Shown in pieces: positions 4,762 through 11,888 of a stretch of 44,871 nucleotides of DNA. The translations under genes and the position numbers were made by a program. This DNA is from Phascolarctobacterium sp. (GTDB lineage: Bacteria; Bacillota; Negativicutes; Acidaminococcales; Acidaminococcaceae). Under the pieces are notes generated by a model, which worked only from the letters and a program-made list of their open reading frames with translations, did no database searches and was not told where the DNA came from. Numbering within the stretch: the stretch's first letter is position 1; each line of letters begins with the position of its first letter. The DNA lies in NCBI GenBank assembly GCA_017623055.1, contig JAGAPX010000010.1, positions 1 through 44,871 of the forward strand, given 5' to 3'.

Positions 4762-4806
4762 AAAAGCTGTAGCTAATCATTGAGATTGGCTACAGCTTTT
4801 CTTTTT
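4762..4806. terminator. Bidirectional terminator between macrodomain gene and DUF2922 gene
   Basis: AAAAGCTGTAGC (4762-4773) pairs perfectly with GCTACAGCTTTT (4789-4800), followed by CTTTTT on the plus strand; the minus strand also ends in a T-run. It separates convergent genes and can serve both. Confidence 0.85.
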
Positions 4807-4871: not shown

Positions 4872-5084
4872 TTATTGCAACACAGTCACTTGGGTAATGC
4901 GCAAGCGTGCTTCTACAATTTCTGCAAGCTTACCGCCGCTAGTTTCAAACACATCTGCGGTGATGATGATTTGCATTGCATCATTTGCTTCCTCCGCAGT
5001 AATGCCTTCACGAGGGTCTACAACGGTTACCACCTTGGTATCGCCGTCTTCATTTTTAAAAACTAATTCTAAAACTTTTTCCAT
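4872..5084 (-). CDS. DUF2922 domain protein
   Basis: A 70-residue protein of the DUF2922 family (short, beta-strand then helix; no signal peptide). Families DUF2922 and DUF1659 are repeatedly neighbours in Firmicutes, often with a tiny YvrJ-type protein and a sigma-like regulator. Here it is the last gene of the cluster, 15 bp after a 22-codon mini-ORF, with AAAGGA before its ATG. Function is unknown for the family. Confidence 0.85.
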   Translation of the reverse strand: MEKVLELVFKNEDGDTKVVTVVDPREGITAEEANDAMQIIITADVFETSGGKLAEIVEARLRITQVTVLQ

Positions 5085-5099
5085 TAAATCAATCCTTTC

Positions 5100-5168
5100 T
5101 TATCTACGTTCCCACATTATCAGCTTAAGTAGAATGCGTGCTACTGCATGCCAAAACTTATTCCACAT
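5100..5168 (-). CDS. 22-residue mini-ORF between DUF1659 and DUF2922 genes
   Basis: Between the DUF1659 stop and the DUF2922 start there is an ATG ORF of 22 codons that almost exactly fills the gap. It is preceded by AAGGA at 8 bp spacing. The peptide begins MWNKFWHAVARILLK and ends in two Arg, so it would be a short cationic amphipathic or membrane-associating helix with three Trp. It occupies the position where related clusters carry a small YvrJ-type protein, but I cannot assert homology at this length. Evidence is position, ribosome binding site and composition only. Confidence 0.45.
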   Translation of the reverse strand: MWNKFWHAVARILLKLIMWERR

Positions 5169-5179
5169 AGGCAGCTTCC

Positions 5180-5404
5180 TTATTCTTCCACAAGCTCGCT
5201 TCTGTCGCTGAGCATAATGCTGGACAAGGTGTTCGCCATAAGGCTTGCGAGGGCATTGCCTGCGTTATACAAATTTTCAATGGGAGCAGTCTCCTTGATG
5301 TCGCTGTAGGTACGGCTCTTAGTTTTTACGCTGCCATCAGCGTTGAAGCCATCCTCCACATTAATTACCAAACTACGTCTAAGCAGTTCTTGTTGAATTG
5401 CCAT
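5180..5404 (-). CDS. DUF1659 domain protein
   Basis: A 74-residue protein of the DUF1659 family, with an N-terminal half rich in beta-prone residues and a C-terminal helix containing NAGNALASLM. It lies 16 bp after the amidase gene on the same strand, preceded by AAAGGAGATAG. The DUF1659/DUF2922 pairing is a recurrent Firmicutes arrangement of unknown function. Confidence 0.85.
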   Translation of the reverse strand: MAIQQELLRRSLVINVEDGFNADGSVKTKSRTYSDIKETAPIENLYNAGNALASLMANTLSSIMLSDRSELVEE

Positions 5405-5420
5405 GTTTTACTATCTCCTT

Positions 5421-5999
5421 TCAAGCCGCAATCCTGCGGTCAAACAAATCTTTGTACCATTGCGCTTTCCTGCGCAGGGTTACTCCGCCCATCCTGTGGT
5501 CAAAATTTCTGGGCGTTCCGGGTAAGTACCATAAATCCCAACGCTTTTGTTCATCGCTACTTAAAGGTCCATAACCATCAACGATGGCAACCTCCGCGTG
5601 GGTGGCGACGGCGCTAAACTCAATGGGCAATTCCAGCGCGTCCGCCAGAATCGCAATCACCTGCGCCATCTTTTCAATCTGCATCATAGTTGGCGGGCAT
5701 TCGCCAAAATCAATGGTCTGTGGATTTTTACCAGTGAAGCTTGCCCCAACGCCACAACACAACGCGATTCCGATGCCGTCCTTGTTCCGCAAAAAAGTGT
5801 GGGACTTAGGTTGGTACAGCTCGTGACAGGTTAAGTAAACCTCGCCGTCCTTGTCGATGTTGATGTGGTAATCGCTGTAGGCTTGCCCGTAGTAGCCTGC
5901 AGTCCAGTGCAGGTACAGGTGCTTGATTTGCCCTTTAGCCTTTAAGCCAAGCATGTGCAGTTCTTGGTGTGTAATCGTTACCGGGTTTTCTACCAGCAA
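5421..5999 (-). CDS. N-acetylmuramoyl-L-alanine amidase-like protein (PGRP/Amidase_2 fold)
   Basis: A protein of about 192 residues resembling Amidase_2/peptidoglycan-recognition domains. It has a KHLYLHWTAG segment carrying the first zinc-ligand-like His and a downstream ATHAEVA segment with a second His. No signal peptide is visible. The frame is open to a GTG at 6008, but GGAGG at 6013-6009 directly abuts that codon; the TTG at 5999 has correct spacing and is preferred. It heads the amidase-DUF1659-mini-ORF-DUF2922 operon, directly downstream of the 140-bp dyad. Phage-endolysin ancestry is possible. Confidence 0.75.
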   Translation of the reverse strand: MLVENPVTITHQELHMLGLKAKGQIKHLYLHWTAGYYGQAYSDYHINIDKDGEVYLTCHELYQPKSHTFLRNKDGIGIALCCGVGASFTGKNPQTIDFGECPPTMMQIEKMAQVIAILADALELPIEFSAVATHAEVAIVDGYGPLSSDEQKRWDLWYLPGTPRNFDHRMGGVTLRRKAQWYKDLFDRRIAA

Positions 6000-6015
6000 G
6001 CGTATCACCTCCTTT

Positions 6016-6155
6016 CACTCTTATAATGGGGTCAAAAACACCAAAAAGGGACATAAATTCTTAAAAAATTTTTCAAACCCACTTTTTCTGAGATTTTTAA
6101 AATTTTTTCGCGAACCATGTCCCTTTTTACACAAAACTTGCCCATTATAAGGGTG
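6016..6155. repeat. 140-bp interrupted dyad upstream of the amidase operon
   Basis: Three blocks are mirrored about position 6085.5: CACTCTTATAATGGG (6016-6030) with CCCATTATAAGGGTG (6141-6155); AAAAAGGGACAT (6043-6054) with its complement (6117-6128); and AAAAAATTTT (6063-6072) with its complement (6099-6108). Spacer lengths are equal on both sides but their sequences differ. Read outward, each arm ends in ATTATAAG, a plausible -10 element; the left arm would start transcription just before the amidase ribosome binding site. It could be a divergent promoter/operator or a small terminal-inverted-repeat element. Confidence 0.7.
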
Positions 6156-6304
6156 AGATTTCTTTTTTCCTCTCCTTCTTTTATTAAATTTTCTTCCTCT
6201 CCTTTATTTCTTTGCCCTCTATTCAAGCAAAGCTTTCAGCTTTGCTACCTTTTCCTATACTTATTACTAAATTTTTACTTAAAGCTATGTCCCTCATATG
6301 TAAA

Positions 6305-6320
6305 TGTTTCACGTGAAACA
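6305..6320. other. parS site, left side of origin
   Basis: TGTTTCACGTGAAACA is a perfect 16-bp palindrome matching the Firmicutes parS consensus bound by ParB/Spo0J. It lies about 21 kb from the dnaA-dnaN spacer, on the opposite side from the four other copies in this window, in the intergenic stretch between the amidase and the sigma-like gene. This copy lacks the flanking repeat seen around three of the others. Confidence 0.92.
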
Positions 6321-6376
6321 TTCATACACCCCTAAAATATTAAAAGCTCCGTCCCTAAGAACGGAGCTTGGTACTG

Positions 6377-6970
6377 CTAATCATCTAAATGTTTTCTGAT
6401 GTTTTTCAACGCTTCCAGCTTCAAGCGTTTTATATGGCGTTCGCTATAACCAAACCACTTCGCTATCTTCCTGTGGCTGTTCTGCTGTACATAGTACTCC
6501 TCTAAAATTTTGTACTGCATTGGTCGCAAAGCCTTTAACGCTTCCTTTACCGATAAATTGGTGAAATTTTCCTCAATAGCATCATAGGACTGGTTTTCCA
6601 AAGCTTCTTCTGAATTGACTTCATTGTTCCAAAGGCTGCTTTCCCTTTCGATGTGGTGAAGCAGCTCGTAACGCAAGTGGCATTGAAGCAAGCCCGGTAG
6701 ATGAGCGTAATCCTTGCCATTGTAACGTTTGATGAAGCTTAGAAAAATAACCCACGCAATATTGACGGAATCTTCGCCAAAGGTATTGAAAACCGTCTGA
6801 CGTTTTGCCTCGCTATTAATAAGAGGCGTGAACAATCGGCACAATTCATCAATGGCAGCTTGCTCATTATTTTGTGCCCTACAAACTAAACCTTTTAATT
6901 TTTCAGGGTCGAGTTTGGTAAAACTTGGTACTGCTAAATTAAAACAACTGCTAGTTGTCTTAGCTATAAT
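6377..6970 (-). CDS. Sigma-70-like regulator with C-terminal HTH
   Basis: About 197 residues resembling a minimal sigma factor: an N-terminal region with conserved LCRLFTPLIN and AWVIFLSFIKRY segments (region-2-like), and a C-terminal helix-turn-helix (SHRKIAKWFGYSERHIKRLK) resembling region 4. The frame is open to a TTG at 7051, but that codon is the -35 box of a strong promoter (7051-7046 and 7028-7023), so translation must start downstream. An AAGGAAGG ribosome binding site at 6983-6976 points to an ATT at 6970 (or ATA at 6967); no ATG, GTG or TTG is suitably placed. It lies upstream of the amidase cluster, which it may control. Confidence 0.7.
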   Translation of the reverse strand: MIAKTTSSCFNLAVPSFTKLDPEKLKGLVCRAQNNEQAAIDELCRLFTPLINSEAKRQTVFNTFGEDSVNIAWVIFLSFIKRYNGKDYAHLPGLLQCHLRYELLHHIERESSLWNNEVNSEEALENQSYDAIEENFTNLSVKEALKALRPMQYKILEEYYVQQNSHRKIAKWFGYSERHIKRLKLEALKNIRKHLDD

Positions 6971-7022
6971 AATTACCTTCCTTCTGTAGTTTATTTTACT
7001 GCATTTCCAAGTCGACACCGCC

Positions 7023-7051
7023 ATTATATCGCAATATTCCGAATTTTGCAA
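7023..7051 (-). promoter_or_regulatory. Promoter of sigma-like gene
   Basis: On the minus strand TTGCAA (7051-7046) and a perfect TATAAT (7028-7023) are separated by 17 bp. The predicted transcript starts near 7016, about 30 bp before the AAGGAAGG ribosome binding site. This decides the start of the downstream gene. Confidence 0.75.
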
Positions 7052-7091
7052 GTATTATCTGAAAAATAATTAAACGTTTAATCTTGAAAGG

Positions 7092-7274
7092 TTTTTCACC
7101 ATGTTCGCTTGCTAAAATCTTGAACATAAGAAAAGCCGCAGCACTTAAGTGCGGCGGCATAGGAACTCGTTATATTTGCAGGATGTGTGGCAAGGAGTTT
7201 GCCATTTGAGGCAAAGATGGTAAGTTGTTTATTGAGGGGGAGAAGCGATGTTTTAAGAAATACTTCCGTGTATA
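7092..7274 (+). pseudogene. Collapsed copy of the polymerase locus (small CxxC gene remnant)
   Basis: Bases 7092-7122 match 12723-12752 (upstream of the Y-family polymerase gene) with one mismatch, and 7112-7240 match 14172-14300 (the small CxxC gene after the polymerase). The two parts join within a shared TAAAAT-containing stretch, as if the polymerase gene had been deleted by microhomology. The copied reading frame carries an in-frame TGA where the intact gene has Phe, then continues to a stop near 7274. It is thus a nonfunctional fragment marking the left edge of the restriction island. From 7275 to 7339 I see nothing I can assign. Confidence 0.75.
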
Positions 7275-7379: not shown

Positions 7380-8969
7380 TCATCGTTTTTCACCATATTC
7401 ACTAAAAATATCAACTATCAAACCAAGAACTCTAGTACGGAAGTTGCCATCCCATTCTTTTCCTGATAAATACAAATTAAACATTTCTTCTGCAGGCATA
7501 AGAATAATATCTATCTCATCCTTGTAATGCTTTTTCTCATTAGGTTTTCCAAAATTAAAAAATTGCAGAATCTCTAAATTTGCGTAACCACGTTTCACAA
7601 ACTCATTACCATCTACAGGCATCAAGAAGCAGTTGCAAACACGATCAAAATCATGCTTTTCAATAAAATCTTTATAGGCAAGATTATACAAATATTGCTT
7701 AGTAATATCGCCTATGCCTGGTTGTCCTTTTAATTCCGGACTAAAAATAGCTTTATAATATTTAGCATCCAACACTGCAAAGCATTTTGTGCCTTCATAT
7801 AGAAAAATACTAACGATATCAGGCTTTAAGGTTTCAGCTACTTTAGGTTCTTCTTTCTGATTAACACTACTATACGCAACCCATTGCGGTTTAGCAATTA
7901 TGGATATAAGTTTATCTTTTTTGTGCTTTTCATAATCAGCATGTAAAGTACCTAAGCAACCTTTGCTTAATTCTCCAAGCTCATCGTGCAAATTATTGTG
8001 CATAACTTTAGCACATACTTGCTCCCACACCAAATTAAAAGATGTAGTACCATGAACACTTAATGCAACATTTTCATAAACGCCTTTTTTGCTATCAATA
8101 TAGGTATGCATAGCTTTCAAAAGCTGTTGCTTACGAGTATTAAATTGTTCCCCAAGCTCTCTTTCGATACGATACAAAATATAGTCCGTATCTCCAAAAT
8201 CATCAAGTACAGTATCAGTTAATTCAATAGGCGACAAATCATCAAAGAGCTCAAACAAATCGTGGTCAGCAAAAGTTTTACTGCATTCCGTTAAGATACA
8301 TTCATGCAATCTTCTAAAATAATTTTCTTGCTCATCAACGCGCTTTCTAGTTAAAAGCTCTGTGTAATATGGTCTATTATTAACAATTAAAGGTTGCACT
8401 TGGTTGACAGTTCTATCCCACAAAATGGCACCTGTACCATTACTTTCGATAATGGATTTGTGATTAAAGTAGATGCCGTGTTCATAATAATCATGAAGCA
8501 AGTACAATATTACTTCTAACAAATTAAACCCTTTTTCAGAAACATCATCAGACAACATTCTTATATCAGTACTATTGGAATTATGTTTCTCTAAAACCCT
8601 TAGCACTTGTTTAAATTTGTTAAGCAAGTTTTTCTCATCAGCTTCTTCAATATATTTAGGGTAGCACTTCAACACGAAACCGCCAATGATTATAATGCCA
8701 ACATAGGTAAAAGTGTACCTATATCCATTAATATCAGCAATGGCATCTGTAACATCAATTACTTCATCTGCCATATCACTCATATCATCAGTAGCTTTAT
8801 TGCTTTGATTTATCTTGAGTATTTTTTTGTAACGTAACTGTCTGATAATGTTAGCAAAATCAGTTTCTTTGCACTTGAAGATAGCTTCTAATTCTTTGCG
8901 TGTATATGGAGTTTCCTCTTTGACATATCCACTTTTTAAATTTTTGGAAGCAGTTTTATCTTCAGTCAT
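7380..8969 (-). CDS. LlaJI-family restriction endonuclease subunit (McrC-like)
   Basis: A 529-residue McrC/LlaJI R2-type protein. A predicted PD-(D/E)XK nuclease core lies near the C-terminus: Asp384 in the DIVSIF strand and D401-A-K403 in VLDAKYYK. The N-terminal half holds a winged-helix-like segment and the McrC-type insert. It begins 4 bp after the stop of the McrB-like GTPase gene and is the last gene of a methyltransferase-GTPase-nuclease operon. By family knowledge the nuclease partners the GTPase, which drives translocation and cleavage at unmodified sites. Local base composition is AT-rich, consistent with horizontal acquisition. Confidence 0.85.
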   Translation of the reverse strand: MTEDKTASKNLKSGYVKEETPYTRKELEAIFKCKETDFANIIRQLRYKKILKINQSNKATDDMSDMADEVIDVTDAIADINGYRYTFTYVGIIIIGGFVLKCYPKYIEEADEKNLLNKFKQVLRVLEKHNSNSTDIRMLSDDVSEKGFNLLEVILYLLHDYYEHGIYFNHKSIIESNGTGAILWDRTVNQVQPLIVNNRPYYTELLTRKRVDEQENYFRRLHECILTECSKTFADHDLFELFDDLSPIELTDTVLDDFGDTDYILYRIERELGEQFNTRKQQLLKAMHTYIDSKKGVYENVALSVHGTTSFNLVWEQVCAKVMHNNLHDELGELSKGCLGTLHADYEKHKKDKLISIIAKPQWVAYSSVNQKEEPKVAETLKPDIVSIFLYEGTKCFAVLDAKYYKAIFSPELKGQPGIGDITKQYLYNLAYKDFIEKHDFDRVCNCFLMPVDGNEFVKRGYANLEILQFFNFGKPNEKKHYKDEIDIILMPAEEMFNLYLSGKEWDGNFRTRVLGLIVDIFSEYGEKR

Positions 8970-8973
8970 TTTA

Positions 8974-10893
8974 TTACTCCACAGTCTCTGCAGTTTCTAC
9001 TGTTTGCTCTTGGTTAGTAGTGGTTACTTGTGTTTCAGCCAACCTTTTGTACTCTTCAACGATATTAGCTACGAAGATATTGATACCGTTCTTCTCAAAA
9101 TCTTTGCAAAGAGCAGAATATCTTGTTTTATTATTATCAAGTTTAAAAATTCTTCCCGGCTTTTGTCGTACAGCATCTTCAAACAGATACATAATAACCT
9201 TGTTGCAGAATGCTTCAACAAATTTCTCGTTATTGTTTTCATCAATAACATTTTTAGAAACAAAGAAAGCACCCATCAATTTATCTTCATTGATTCCGTT
9301 ATCAGTTAATTCCTTGTTAATAGCTTTACGCAAAGAGTTCCAATGTAGTTTTACACCAGCAACTTCAAACCAGTAATGATTTATATCTTTGTCGTTATTA
9401 TCAATGTCAATATATTCGAAACCCCATCTACGTTTGAAGGCAGTATCCATAGGATAAACACCTTGGTCAGCACTATTCATAGTTGCCCAAAGGAACAAAT
9501 TGTTAGGAATCTTAATGCTTTCAACTTTAGTACTATCAATATTCAAAGCTTCAGACAAATACTTACGCATATCTTCAGAAGTTTGAATTGCATATTCGCT
9601 TACACCCTTTGCATCTCGGTCAAGCAATTGGAAAACATCACCAAAAACAGCTGCTACATTGGCACGATTAATTTCTTCAATAATCAGCAAATGAGCTTGT
9701 TCCGAATTTAGCAATGCTTTTACCAACATACGCATAAAAGGACCAGGTATATATTTGTAGGTGATAATATCTTTACCAGCTTCGTCTTTTGCAGGCACAG
9801 GTTTGTAGGTGCCAACGAAATTAGCATAAGTATAATCGGGATGGAATGTTACACGTTCAAAATTATTAGTATCTCCTACCAAATCTTTTTGTTGTTCTTT
9901 CAACAGATGACTTTTGCCAGTACCAGGAGCACCAAAGATAATGCGATTAAGGGGATAACTGCTAGTTACATTAGTGTTGTAGATTATTTCAAAAGCAGCC
10001 ATATCTTTTACTGATAAAAATTTACGATACAAATTAAGACACGGCATCAAAGCATTAGCACCATAACTTAATAATTCTGGTAGCAGTTCATCTTTCTCTA
10101 TAACATCCTTAACAATTCTATCAAGTACTGTAACACTGTTTATGTTAAAAATGCTCTCATACGTTCCAAACTTACCTCTTAACTTATTAGAAGCATTTTT
10201 TACAGAACCTATATAATTGGATCGTGTACTATCAGTATAAGGTTTACCATCATCGTGAGTTTGCAACTTAAACCATTCTTTAAATTCTTCTTCATTGTTA
10301 ACAGTAATATCAATATCCCATGCACTGTGAAGCGCATTTGCATCTGAATATGTCTCTGGACCATTACTATTAACTATAACAGTTTTAAGTACCAATTCAT
10401 CTTGATTGCGTACAACTATTTCATATACAAACCAACATGCATTGTCTGCAAGTCCAAGTTGTTGCCTTACTTGGCTATAAAACATTTCGTTTGTATAAGC
10501 TGTACCATCTGTATATGTGATTGAAGGTGCATATTTCAAAATTAGTCTACCTTTATGTGATTCAGAATCATCCCTTATAATAACTAATCCAAATTTACCA
10601 CCATTAATCAATGCTTCGTTAATATAAACCTTAGAAAACACCGAAGCTAATACAAAAGGAGAGTCACTATCCGTGCCCGTAATATAGGCACCGCCTCTAC
10701 CCTTTTTCATTTTTATCTTTTCTAAAGAAACAGATTTATACACCATTCCCTTGAGTAATTCATTTATTTCAGCATTTTCATTAATTCTATAATTTTTAGC
10801 TTTACTTTGTCCTAAAGATGTTGCCCAATTAGGAGTATTACCACCACTTGTAACAGTATAACCAAACGCTAAAGTTGCAAAATCGATTCTCAT
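8974..10893 (-). CDS. McrB-like AAA+ GTPase, restriction system motor subunit
   Basis: About 639 residues. The N-terminal ~250 residues form an unassigned, presumably DNA-recognition domain; the C-terminal half is an McrB-type AAA+ motor with Walker A GAPGTGKS (about 321-328), Walker B LLIIEEINRAN, and MNSADQG, corresponding to the McrB-specific MNxxDRS signature with Gln in place of Arg. The ATG at 10893 overlaps the methyltransferase stop (ATGA) and has GGAGG 8 bp upstream; the frame extends to a TTG at 10908 but that lacks a site. It partners the McrC-like nuclease encoded next. Confidence 0.87.
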   Translation of the reverse strand: MRIDFATLAFGYTVTSGGNTPNWATSLGQSKAKNYRINENAEINELLKGMVYKSVSLEKIKMKKGRGGAYITGTDSDSPFVLASVFSKVYINEALINGGKFGLVIIRDDSESHKGRLILKYAPSITYTDGTAYTNEMFYSQVRQQLGLADNACWFVYEIVVRNQDELVLKTVIVNSNGPETYSDANALHSAWDIDITVNNEEEFKEWFKLQTHDDGKPYTDSTRSNYIGSVKNASNKLRGKFGTYESIFNINSVTVLDRIVKDVIEKDELLPELLSYGANALMPCLNLYRKFLSVKDMAAFEIIYNTNVTSSYPLNRIIFGAPGTGKSHLLKEQQKDLVGDTNNFERVTFHPDYTYANFVGTYKPVPAKDEAGKDIITYKYIPGPFMRMLVKALLNSEQAHLLIIEEINRANVAAVFGDVFQLLDRDAKGVSEYAIQTSEDMRKYLSEALNIDSTKVESIKIPNNLFLWATMNSADQGVYPMDTAFKRRWGFEYIDIDNNDKDINHYWFEVAGVKLHWNSLRKAINKELTDNGINEDKLMGAFFVSKNVIDENNNEKFVEAFCNKVIMYLFEDAVRQKPGRIFKLDNNKTRYSALCKDFEKNGINIFVANIVEEYKRLAETQVTTTNQEQTVETAETVE

Positions 10894-11888
10894 ACCAACT
10901 GCCTCCAAATATGTTTCAATAATATACCTACAAGATTAACATCCCAACCATTAGCTGCGCGTTTAGAAAGTTGAGTGTATGATTGATTTGCAAAATTTAC
11001 TTCTCCATCTTTGAAACCCATTAATCTAAATTGTTCCGCAACTGAATATTTACGTACTATTTCAATCCCATCTTCACCAGTAGGTTCAACGAGTCGCAAT
11101 TTATTATGTTCTGGTGCTAATATTGTAATACTAATACCATCATCTCTAATTTTTCTATTATACAAATCGAAGCAAGAAGCCTCATCTACAACGAATGAAG
11201 GAATACCATAAAAGTCTTTTATTCTTTGTATTTGTTGCTGTGTAAGATATAAAAACTTTTCAGGTTCTTTATCCACAAAATCTTTCAACTTTAAATCACT
11301 ATCTATTTTAGGTGGCACCATTGAAAAATCTTCTGGTAATCCTCCCAATTTCGCAAACATCCATAACCTTTCACGATTTTGAGGAATACCATAATCTTTG
11401 GTGTTTAAGATTGCATACTTTAAATCACCATATCCTAATTCTTTGAGTGCATTTTTCAAAGTATCAAATGTATTTTTAAATCTCTTTGTTGCTAAGCCTT
11501 TTACATTTTCCAATAAGATGTAACGAGGCTTTTTATGTGCGCAAATTCTAATAATATCATAAAGCAAAGTTCCTCTACCATAACGATCATTTTCACCTTG
11601 TTGCATCCCAACAGTAGAAAATGGTTGACAAGGAAAACCGCCTGTAAACATATCAAAATCAGGTAAATCTTCGGGATTGATTTTGGTTATATCTCCCCAA
11701 TTTTTTATTGGGTTTCCATTCTCATCGCGATGATTCGCATCGTATAACGCAGAAGCAAATTTATCAAATTCTGAATAACCAATAACTTGATGGTTTATAC
11801 CTGCACGTCGCAACCCATACGTTGCCCCACCATAACCAGCGAATCCCTCAAACACTTTTATAGCTTCATTCTTTACAGTTTCATTCAT
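10890..11888 (-). CDS. DNA (cytosine-5) methyltransferase
   Basis: A 332-residue C5 methyltransferase with motifs in order: FEGFAGYGGATYG (motif I, SAM binding), GGFPCQPFS with catalytic Cys87 (motif IV), ENVKG (motif VI), QNRERLW (motif VIII) and NGWDVNLVGILL (motif X). The target-recognition region lies between about residues 190 and 275. It is the first gene of the restriction-modification operon and overlaps the GTPase gene by 4 bp. Classical LlaJI systems carry two methyltransferases for an asymmetric site; only one is present here, which suggests a symmetric target. Specificity cannot be read from sequence. Confidence 0.92.
   Translation of the reverse strand: MNETVKNEAIKVFEGFAGYGGATYGLRRAGINHQVIGYSEFDKFASALYDANHRDENGNPIKNWGDITKINPEDLPDFDMFTGGFPCQPFSTVGMQQGENDRYGRGTLLYDIIRICAHKKPRYILLENVKGLATKRFKNTFDTLKNALKELGYGDLKYAILNTKDYGIPQNRERLWMFAKLGGLPEDFSMVPPKIDSDLKLKDFVDKEPEKFLYLTQQQIQRIKDFYGIPSFVVDEASCFDLYNRKIRDDGISITILAPEHNKLRLVEPTGEDGIEIVRKYSVAEQFRLMGFKDGEVNFANQSYTQLSKRAANGWDVNLVGILLKHIWRQLV

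Follow-up and report, generated by a model that had tools for sequence, protein, structure and literature searches.

A sigma factor-linked amidase–DUF1659–DUF2922 cassette and its divergent promoter-like elements in Phascolarctobacterium

Introduction

In PBSX, an Xre repressor lies beside a sigma-like activator, and the latter switches genes for an amidase and small membrane proteins. Lysis of Bacillus subtilis is affected by Xpf, the sigma-like factor of PBSX (PMC4243946). UviA (a sigma factor), UviB (a BhlA-type holin) and an N-acetylmuramoyl-L-alanine amidase always occur together with a signal-less bacteriocin (PMC9527704). The SigO-RsoA regulon of B. subtilis includes yvrJ and oxdC (PMC8103513). 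Here, these systems are compared with a cassette of five open reading frames (ORFs), coding for a sigma-70 family factor, an amidase, a DUF1659 protein, a 22-residue peptide and a DUF2922 protein, found in a stretch of Phascolarctobacterium sp. DNA of 44,871 nt (contig JAGAPX010000010.1, hereafter the window).

Sequence comparison establishes the gene content of this cassette and its multicopy state, the coding evolution of its mini-ORF, a set of divergent bipartite elements that fall into classes and the link of these elements to sigma genes. The most informative feature of the locus lies in the gap between the sigma and amidase genes, on which an earlier reading of the window from its letters alone (the sequence-only reading) had not commented, and the most unexpected part is the existence of dispersed, class-specific double promoter-like elements with a predicted C/U-rich RNA. 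We give about an even chance to the cassette being a domesticated, phage-derived-looking and sigma-switched module for lysis or release, like UviA/UviB–endolysin.

Results

Gene content and copies of the cassette

The five ORFs had been proposed to form one cluster, and all of them were found on the minus strand with the named domains (Pfam). For comparison within the genus, four genomes (G000–G003) were used, all of them draft assemblies; the window is contig C42 of G000, a genome of 1.72 Mb whose named relatives are Phascolarctobacterium metagenome-assembled genomes from roe deer gut. The cassette is multicopy, with two copies in the window genome and up to five in one sister genome. Type A copies carry a whole amidase gene; type B copies carry a 44-codon piece made up of approximately the first 36 amidase residues and a short, conserved tail. 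This remnant of the amidase N-terminus (..PKLITQEELHKLASKTVGNAKKIYLHYTPQEGAMVLKFLF) is conserved in several genomes (L035:3621-3755, L037, L038 and L041:359-493).

The mini-ORF (MWNKFWHAVARILLKLIMWERR, 5100–5168, minus strand) sits between the DUF1659 and DUF2922 genes and encodes a cationic, amphipathic peptide of net charge +4, with the consensus MWNKFW(H/R)AVA(R/Q)ILLKLI(M/A/Y)WER(K/R). Its conservation had been set beforehand as a refutation test: it occupies the same place in 12 of 12 genus copies and evolves as a coding sequence, with a pairwise ratio of nonsynonymous to synonymous differences (pN/pS) of 0.15 in frame versus about 1.6 when read in either of the other frames, the in-frame value being one that none of 1000 column shuffles reached (0/1000), and with 5, 5 and 16 variable columns at codon positions 1, 2 and 3, respectively. 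As judged from these comparisons, the mini-ORF codons are under purifying selection. In a neighbouring genus, MKLFWKILLHIIGGKIWKKY fills the same gap behind a GGAGG motif. The 22-mer had no match in Pfam, PHROG or NCBIfam, and it does not fall into the YvrJ/BhlA/UviB holin-like family, as neither PF12841 nor a holin family was matched. As a part of the cluster, the mini-ORF held within the genus but not elsewhere, where YvrJ or other short ORFs take its place.

The amidase gene (5421–6008, minus strand; likely start TTG 5999 behind AAAGGAGG) encodes a protein without signal peptide that belongs to Amidase_2 (PF01510, 29.3 bits vs. a cut-off of 26) and carries the motifs LHWTAG and THAE, as detected by inspection. 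Its best PHROG match is the phage endolysin family phrog_5867 (E=2.7e-31), and no solved structure was found as a relative by sequence. Type A amidases of different genomes are intact and 87–88% identical. Synteny of the sigma regulator and the amidase in relatives, a second refutation test, was kept. The proposal that the whole arrangement is one unit is sustained for the cluster itself, but the amidase is not part of its core, being a remnant in about half of the genus copies and lacking at many outgroup loci.

The DUF1659 gene (5180–5404, minus strand, 74 aa) and the DUF2922 gene (4872–5084, minus strand, 70 aa) encode clear members of their families (PF07872, 71.9 bits vs. a cut-off of 24.1, and PF11148, 78.7 bits vs. 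25.5, respectively), for which no function is described in Pfam or in the titles and abstracts of the open literature searched, where a single paper mentions either family by name. Both proteins were modelled by AlphaFold2 with a beta-beta-alpha-beta arrangement, at a predicted local distance difference test score (pLDDT) of 83.7 for DUF1659 and 80.3 for DUF2922. The best Foldseek E-value of DUF2922 against solved structures was 0.088, and VIA-align gave Z <5 for both proteins, with phi29 p6, T7 Gp2 and p56 among the entries common to both lists; these weak matches of the models are taken as a common small fold only. Comparison of the DUF1659 and DUF2922 profiles was not significant and is suggestive only (P 0.019, probability 2.4%), and the two modelled proteins may share a fold. 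The cassette is closed by a terminator-like inverted repeat at 4762–4800, with 17-nt arms that are 94% complementary and to which no strand was assigned.

The DUF pair outside the genus

The sequence-only reading had stated that the two DUF proteins recur together in Firmicutes. Among 36 DUF2922 loci taken across Bacillota-type genomes, DUF1659 was upstream of DUF2922 in every case (36/36), YvrJ was downstream of the pair in 29 and a sigma gene lay directly upstream of DUF1659 in nine. The outgroup YvrJ proteins match PF12841 and the phage holin family phrog_4898 (E=4.5e-5). Genes for Amidase_2 or Peptidase_M15 were near DUF1659-DUF2922-YvrJ in at least six of the 36 loci, distant genomes included, with L217 assigned from its likeness to L212. 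DUF2922 was present in 100 of 199 genomes sampled from the phylum, mostly once per genome. The DUF1659-DUF2922 pair is, on this distribution, an old and widespread core, and the mini-ORF is a feature at the level of the genus. PHROG families exist for both DUF1659 and DUF2922. In other Bacillota, a family of proteins of approximately 180–250 aa without Pfam match is found repeatedly beside DUF1659-DUF2922-YvrJ (L209:2126-2770, L218:89-847 and similar loci).

A divergent promoter-like element between the sigma and amidase genes

The gap of about 370 bp between the sigma and amidase genes contains two divergent promoter-like arms and a putative gene for a C/U-rich RNA. The arms form an inverted repeat upstream of the amidase gene, are bipartite and face apart, with the window pattern GTCCCTTTTT-N12-CCCATTATAAGRGTGA: the left arm (GTCCCTTTTT-N12-CCCATTATAAGGGTGA, 6119–6156, plus strand) points to the C/U-rich RNA and the right arm (GTCCCTTTTT-N12-CCCATTATAAGAGTGA, 6015–6052, minus strand) to the amidase operon. 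The same bipartite layout, with a different sequence, was found before other cassette copies and in other genera. Of the 54 element copies inspected in the genus, 36 have both arms, and in these the identity from arm to arm is 89% for block 1 and 91% for block 2 compared to 32% for the 9-nt spacer (background 25%).

The exact window pattern occurs at five sites of its own genome, whereas a reversed control pattern occurs at none. Two of these sites are the window arms, two more form a divergent pair on C45 and the fifth is an arm on C38 with a slightly changed partner; the elements on C45 and C38 stand alone, with no cassette. When the RNA side was searched with a model (R1), 11, 18, 15 and 14 copies were detected in the four genus genomes, many of them stand-alone and many at contig ends, and none was detected in 57 other genomes at E 1e-4. 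The divergent element had no match in phage or plasmid collections.

The arms, when sorted by eye, fall into about eight classes that are shared between genomes. The distance between sigma proteins in region 2 tracks the distance between -10 blocks (Mantel rho 0.36, p=0.004, n=14). A suggestive case is the pair formed by the sigmas of G003:C58 and G002:C2, which are 86% identical in region 2 versus 39% in region 4 and whose elements, as compared by sequence, have similar -10 blocks but different -35 blocks. The element classes seen in G001 are each matched by a sigma gene of their own class, which is not so for most of those in G003.

The position of the elements is not constant. Elements of different classes are found at the 3' end of rpe in G000 and G001, with none in G002 and G003, and at gyrA there is no element in G000, one of class W in G001 and one of class T in G002; these differences imply that elements come and go or are replaced. 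One stand-alone copy has been retained between the same neighbouring genes in both G002 and G003. Some units have lost their operon (L134 and L142) or their second arm. A comparison of synteny at the LysE locus gave no result, as the gene was not found in the sister genomes. In the class G elements at the contig ends of L143 and L196 (G001:C11 and G001:C90), the centre is interrupted by a sequence identical in both, which probably reflects either an insertion sequence or the splitting of one locus between two contigs. An invertible promoter was also considered and is not favoured, since a near-palindrome with a short centre would be little altered by inversion.

A predicted C/U-rich RNA

The tract predicted to be transcribed from the arm averted from the amidase has a median of 88% pyrimidine and 6% G over the 54 copies; 17 of these reach at least 90% pyrimidine compared to 0 of 8693 background windows, and in 48 the tract leads into a hairpin with 6 bp or more. 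In the window, this RNA is predicted at 6151–6282 on the plus strand from the R1 match and the composition of the tract, heading away from the amidase and ending near the hairpin GCAAAGC-TTTCA-GCTTTGC (6227–6245) and a U-rich stretch. A C/U-rich RNA is apparently made at each element. In Rfam, no match to the predicted RNA above the gathering score was obtained for the window and ten loci, the only matches being tRNAs in L043, and a scan by E-value of 5990–7200 gave matches at chance level only. An anti-Shine-Dalgarno role was discarded, as CUCC-type motifs are present in just 26 of the 54 copies and hence are not constant.

Identity, start and control of the sigma genes

The predicted regulator (6377–6967, minus strand) proved to be a member of the sigma-70 family, as anticipated by the sequence-only reading: residues 66–222 match TIGR02937 (sigma70-ECF, NCBIfam) with 47.3 bits vs. 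a cut-off of 42.9, spanning regions 2 and 4, Sigma70_r4 (PF04545) is matched with 26.7 bits vs. 24.1, and PHROG sigma factors are matched too. The start assigned in that reading is probably not the true one. The ORF is formally open from TTG 7051, but this TTG coincides with the -35 box of a sigmaA-like promoter (7023–7051, minus strand) composed of TTGCAA (7051–7046), a 17-nt spacer and TATAAT (7028–7023). A start at ATA 6967 behind AGAAGGAAGG is more likely on comparative grounds, because paralogues carry ATT, ATC or ATA at that position. A similar TTGC-N17-TATAAT arrangement was seen by eye before other copies.

Fifteen full-length sigma genes were found across the four genus genomes, and almost all of them lie immediately 5' of an element. 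Among these 15 genes (such as window 6967, L151, L155 and L154), ATG, GTG or TTG is often missing at the distance expected from a good Shine-Dalgarno sequence, and ATT, ATC or ATA stands there instead. The sigma genes apparently have non-canonical start codons.

XRE-type (Cro/CI-type) genes lie divergently upstream of the sigma gene in several other loci (Pfam), making a repressor–sigma switch likely there. In the window there is no XRE gene divergent to the sigma gene and a type II restriction–modification system is found instead. This system, LlaJI-like and composed of a nuclease, an AAA protein and a C5 methylase, occupies 7380–11888, immediately upstream of the sigma gene. A recombination scar is suggested by a 16-nt repeat (7091 and 7385) that is similar to the end of the nuclease gene. 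At L099:5451-8552, an MmeI-type restriction–modification gene comes after a class W element that stands alone, and Vsr-like ORFs lie near the L033 and L034 modules; it is possible that elements and modules tend to lie near defence genes. The cassette proteins themselves had no defence-system match in PADLOC, and the cassette as a defence system was thus rejected. The neighbours examined were the type II restriction–modification system, a macro domain, a dinB-like polymerase, gyrA, gyrB and dnaA.

Discussion

A role of the cassette in lysis or release, suggested by the sequence-only reading, gains weight from the match of the amidase to a phage endolysin family and of YvrJ to a phage holin family, and from the Amidase_2 or Peptidase_M15 genes beside DUF1659-DUF2922-YvrJ in several other Bacillota loci. 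In the sequence of events that we propose, a Cro/CI-type repressor, missing in the window, would keep the sigma gene off, and its release would allow the dedicated sigma-70 factor to be made. This factor would guide RNA polymerase to the divergent pair of near-identical bipartite promoters, on the assumption that sigma binds the arms and that both are active. From one putative promoter, the amidase–DUF1659–mini-peptide–DUF2922 operon would be expressed; the mini-peptide, or YvrJ in other clades, may then weaken or perforate the membrane, so that the signal-less amidase could gain access to the wall and produce lysis or release, with DUF1659 and DUF2922 as possible released cargo or small structural partners. 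From the other, the C/U-rich RNA with its 3' hairpin would be produced, with a putative role as RNA.

Several observations weigh against this proposal. The mini-ORF has no family match, so that a holin-like role is proposed from its composition and position. In about half of the copies in the genus there is only the 44-codon N-terminal piece of the amidase and several outgroup clusters have no amidase, which argues that wall cleavage is not a constant function. As for the pairing of sigmas with arms, distances in sigma region 4 are not significantly correlated with those of the -35 block (rho 0.07, p=0.29), and region 2 is tracked by the spacer as well (p=0.007), so part of the covariation may stem from common descent. 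Furthermore, the sigma of G001:C58 has class W arms and yet is only 22–35% identical to the window sigma, and G003, which is 89% complete, has elements of several classes with only one full-length sigma gene found.

That the cassette does not serve lysis at all is possible, although we regard it as rather doubtful. In such a case DUF1659 and DUF2922 would form a small, beta-rich regulator or assembly that the mini-peptide or YvrJ anchors in the membrane, with the amidase as an occasional partner for wall remodelling or assembly passage. The invariant order of DUF1659 before DUF2922 with an optional hydrolase would fit this alternative, as would the mostly single DUF2922 of about half of the sampled genomes, expected for a housekeeping-like function, the frequent truncation of the amidase in the genus next to intact DUF1659, mini-ORF and DUF2922, and the place of B. 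subtilis yvrJ in the SigO-RsoA regulon with oxdC and not in a lysis operon (PMC8103513). It accounts less well for the type A amidase, intact, highly similar across genomes and endolysin-matching, and for the recurrence of Amidase_2 or M15 genes beside DUF1659-DUF2922-YvrJ in distant genomes. Less probable still, and in our opinion unlikely, is a selfish, mobile or decaying repeat family (MITE-like, that is, resembling miniature inverted-repeat transposable elements) in which the cassette would be cargo or the remnant of a defective phage with little present function. The differences in presence and class at the rpe and gyrA sites, the many copies at contig ends and the units without operon or second arm could be so explained, but not the purifying selection on the mini-ORF, the conservation of both arms, tract and hairpin in stand-alone copies or the copy kept in the same context in G002 and G003. 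Moreover, no transposase, integrase or phage structural gene was recognised in the cassette, no recombinase was recognised in the units, and no DNA match was found in phage or viral collections, nor was DUF2922 matched in 50,697 phage records or, by pattern, in IMG/VR.

For the inverted repeat alone, an RNA hairpin acting as attenuator or RNase III site was considered in place of a promoter pair. Near-complementarity of the arms in two blocks, just ahead of a Shine-Dalgarno sequence, would suit such a hairpin, but the spacer keeps its length without rising above background complementarity, and on this account the hairpin was rejected in favour of two putative promoters read by protein. Arms also occur without any downstream cassette, and their blocks look like -35/-10 elements with TATA motifs, making the hairpin highly improbable.

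Beyond the lysis or release module itself, a wider scheme can be tentatively put forward, although we would not expect it to hold as a whole: the genus may run several parallel sigma networks whose main targets are the dispersed double-promoter elements, each making a short, pyrimidine-rich RNA and some also driving the cassette. The RNA would act on translation or RNA-binding proteins and the cassette on the envelope, in a two-armed response under one sigma. If the AUU/AUC/AUA starts of the sigma genes are true, they would, as in infC, tie the switch to the activity of initiation factors. DUF1659 and DUF2922 are now linked to dedicated sigmas, to a holin-like protein or mini-peptide and to peptidoglycan hydrolases, making a role in release or lysis directly testable, and the class-specific divergent elements offer a natural set of putative sigma–promoter pairs along with a predicted, undescribed RNA family.

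Compared to the described systems, the cassette resembles PBSX in that, at other loci, an XRE-type repressor adjoins a sigma-like activator of amidase and small membrane protein genes, and differs from it in showing no phage structural genes and in having several sigma classes per genome. With SigO-RsoA it shares the control of a YvrJ gene by a dedicated sigma, given that YvrJ accompanies DUF1659/DUF2922 in most outgroup loci; unlike it, SigO-RsoA is a split sigma tied to oxdC, with no mention of DUF1659/DUF2922 or an amidase (PMC8103513). The UviA-UviB-endolysin-Bcn5 set of Clostridium perfringens pIP404 has a sigma and an amidase in common with the window, where neither a BhlA-type holin nor a recognised bacteriocin was detected (Pfam, PHROG); as these two defining features fail, the cassette is not filed under UviA-UviB. 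Both nevertheless link a dedicated sigma, a small holin-like protein and an amidase, with products that lack signal peptides. In the genus cassette, an unrelated 22-mer (YvrJ in other clades) and DUF1659/DUF2922, the latter in the place of the bacteriocin, complete the set, which is chromosomal, multicopy and accompanied by a dispersed divergent promoter/RNA element.

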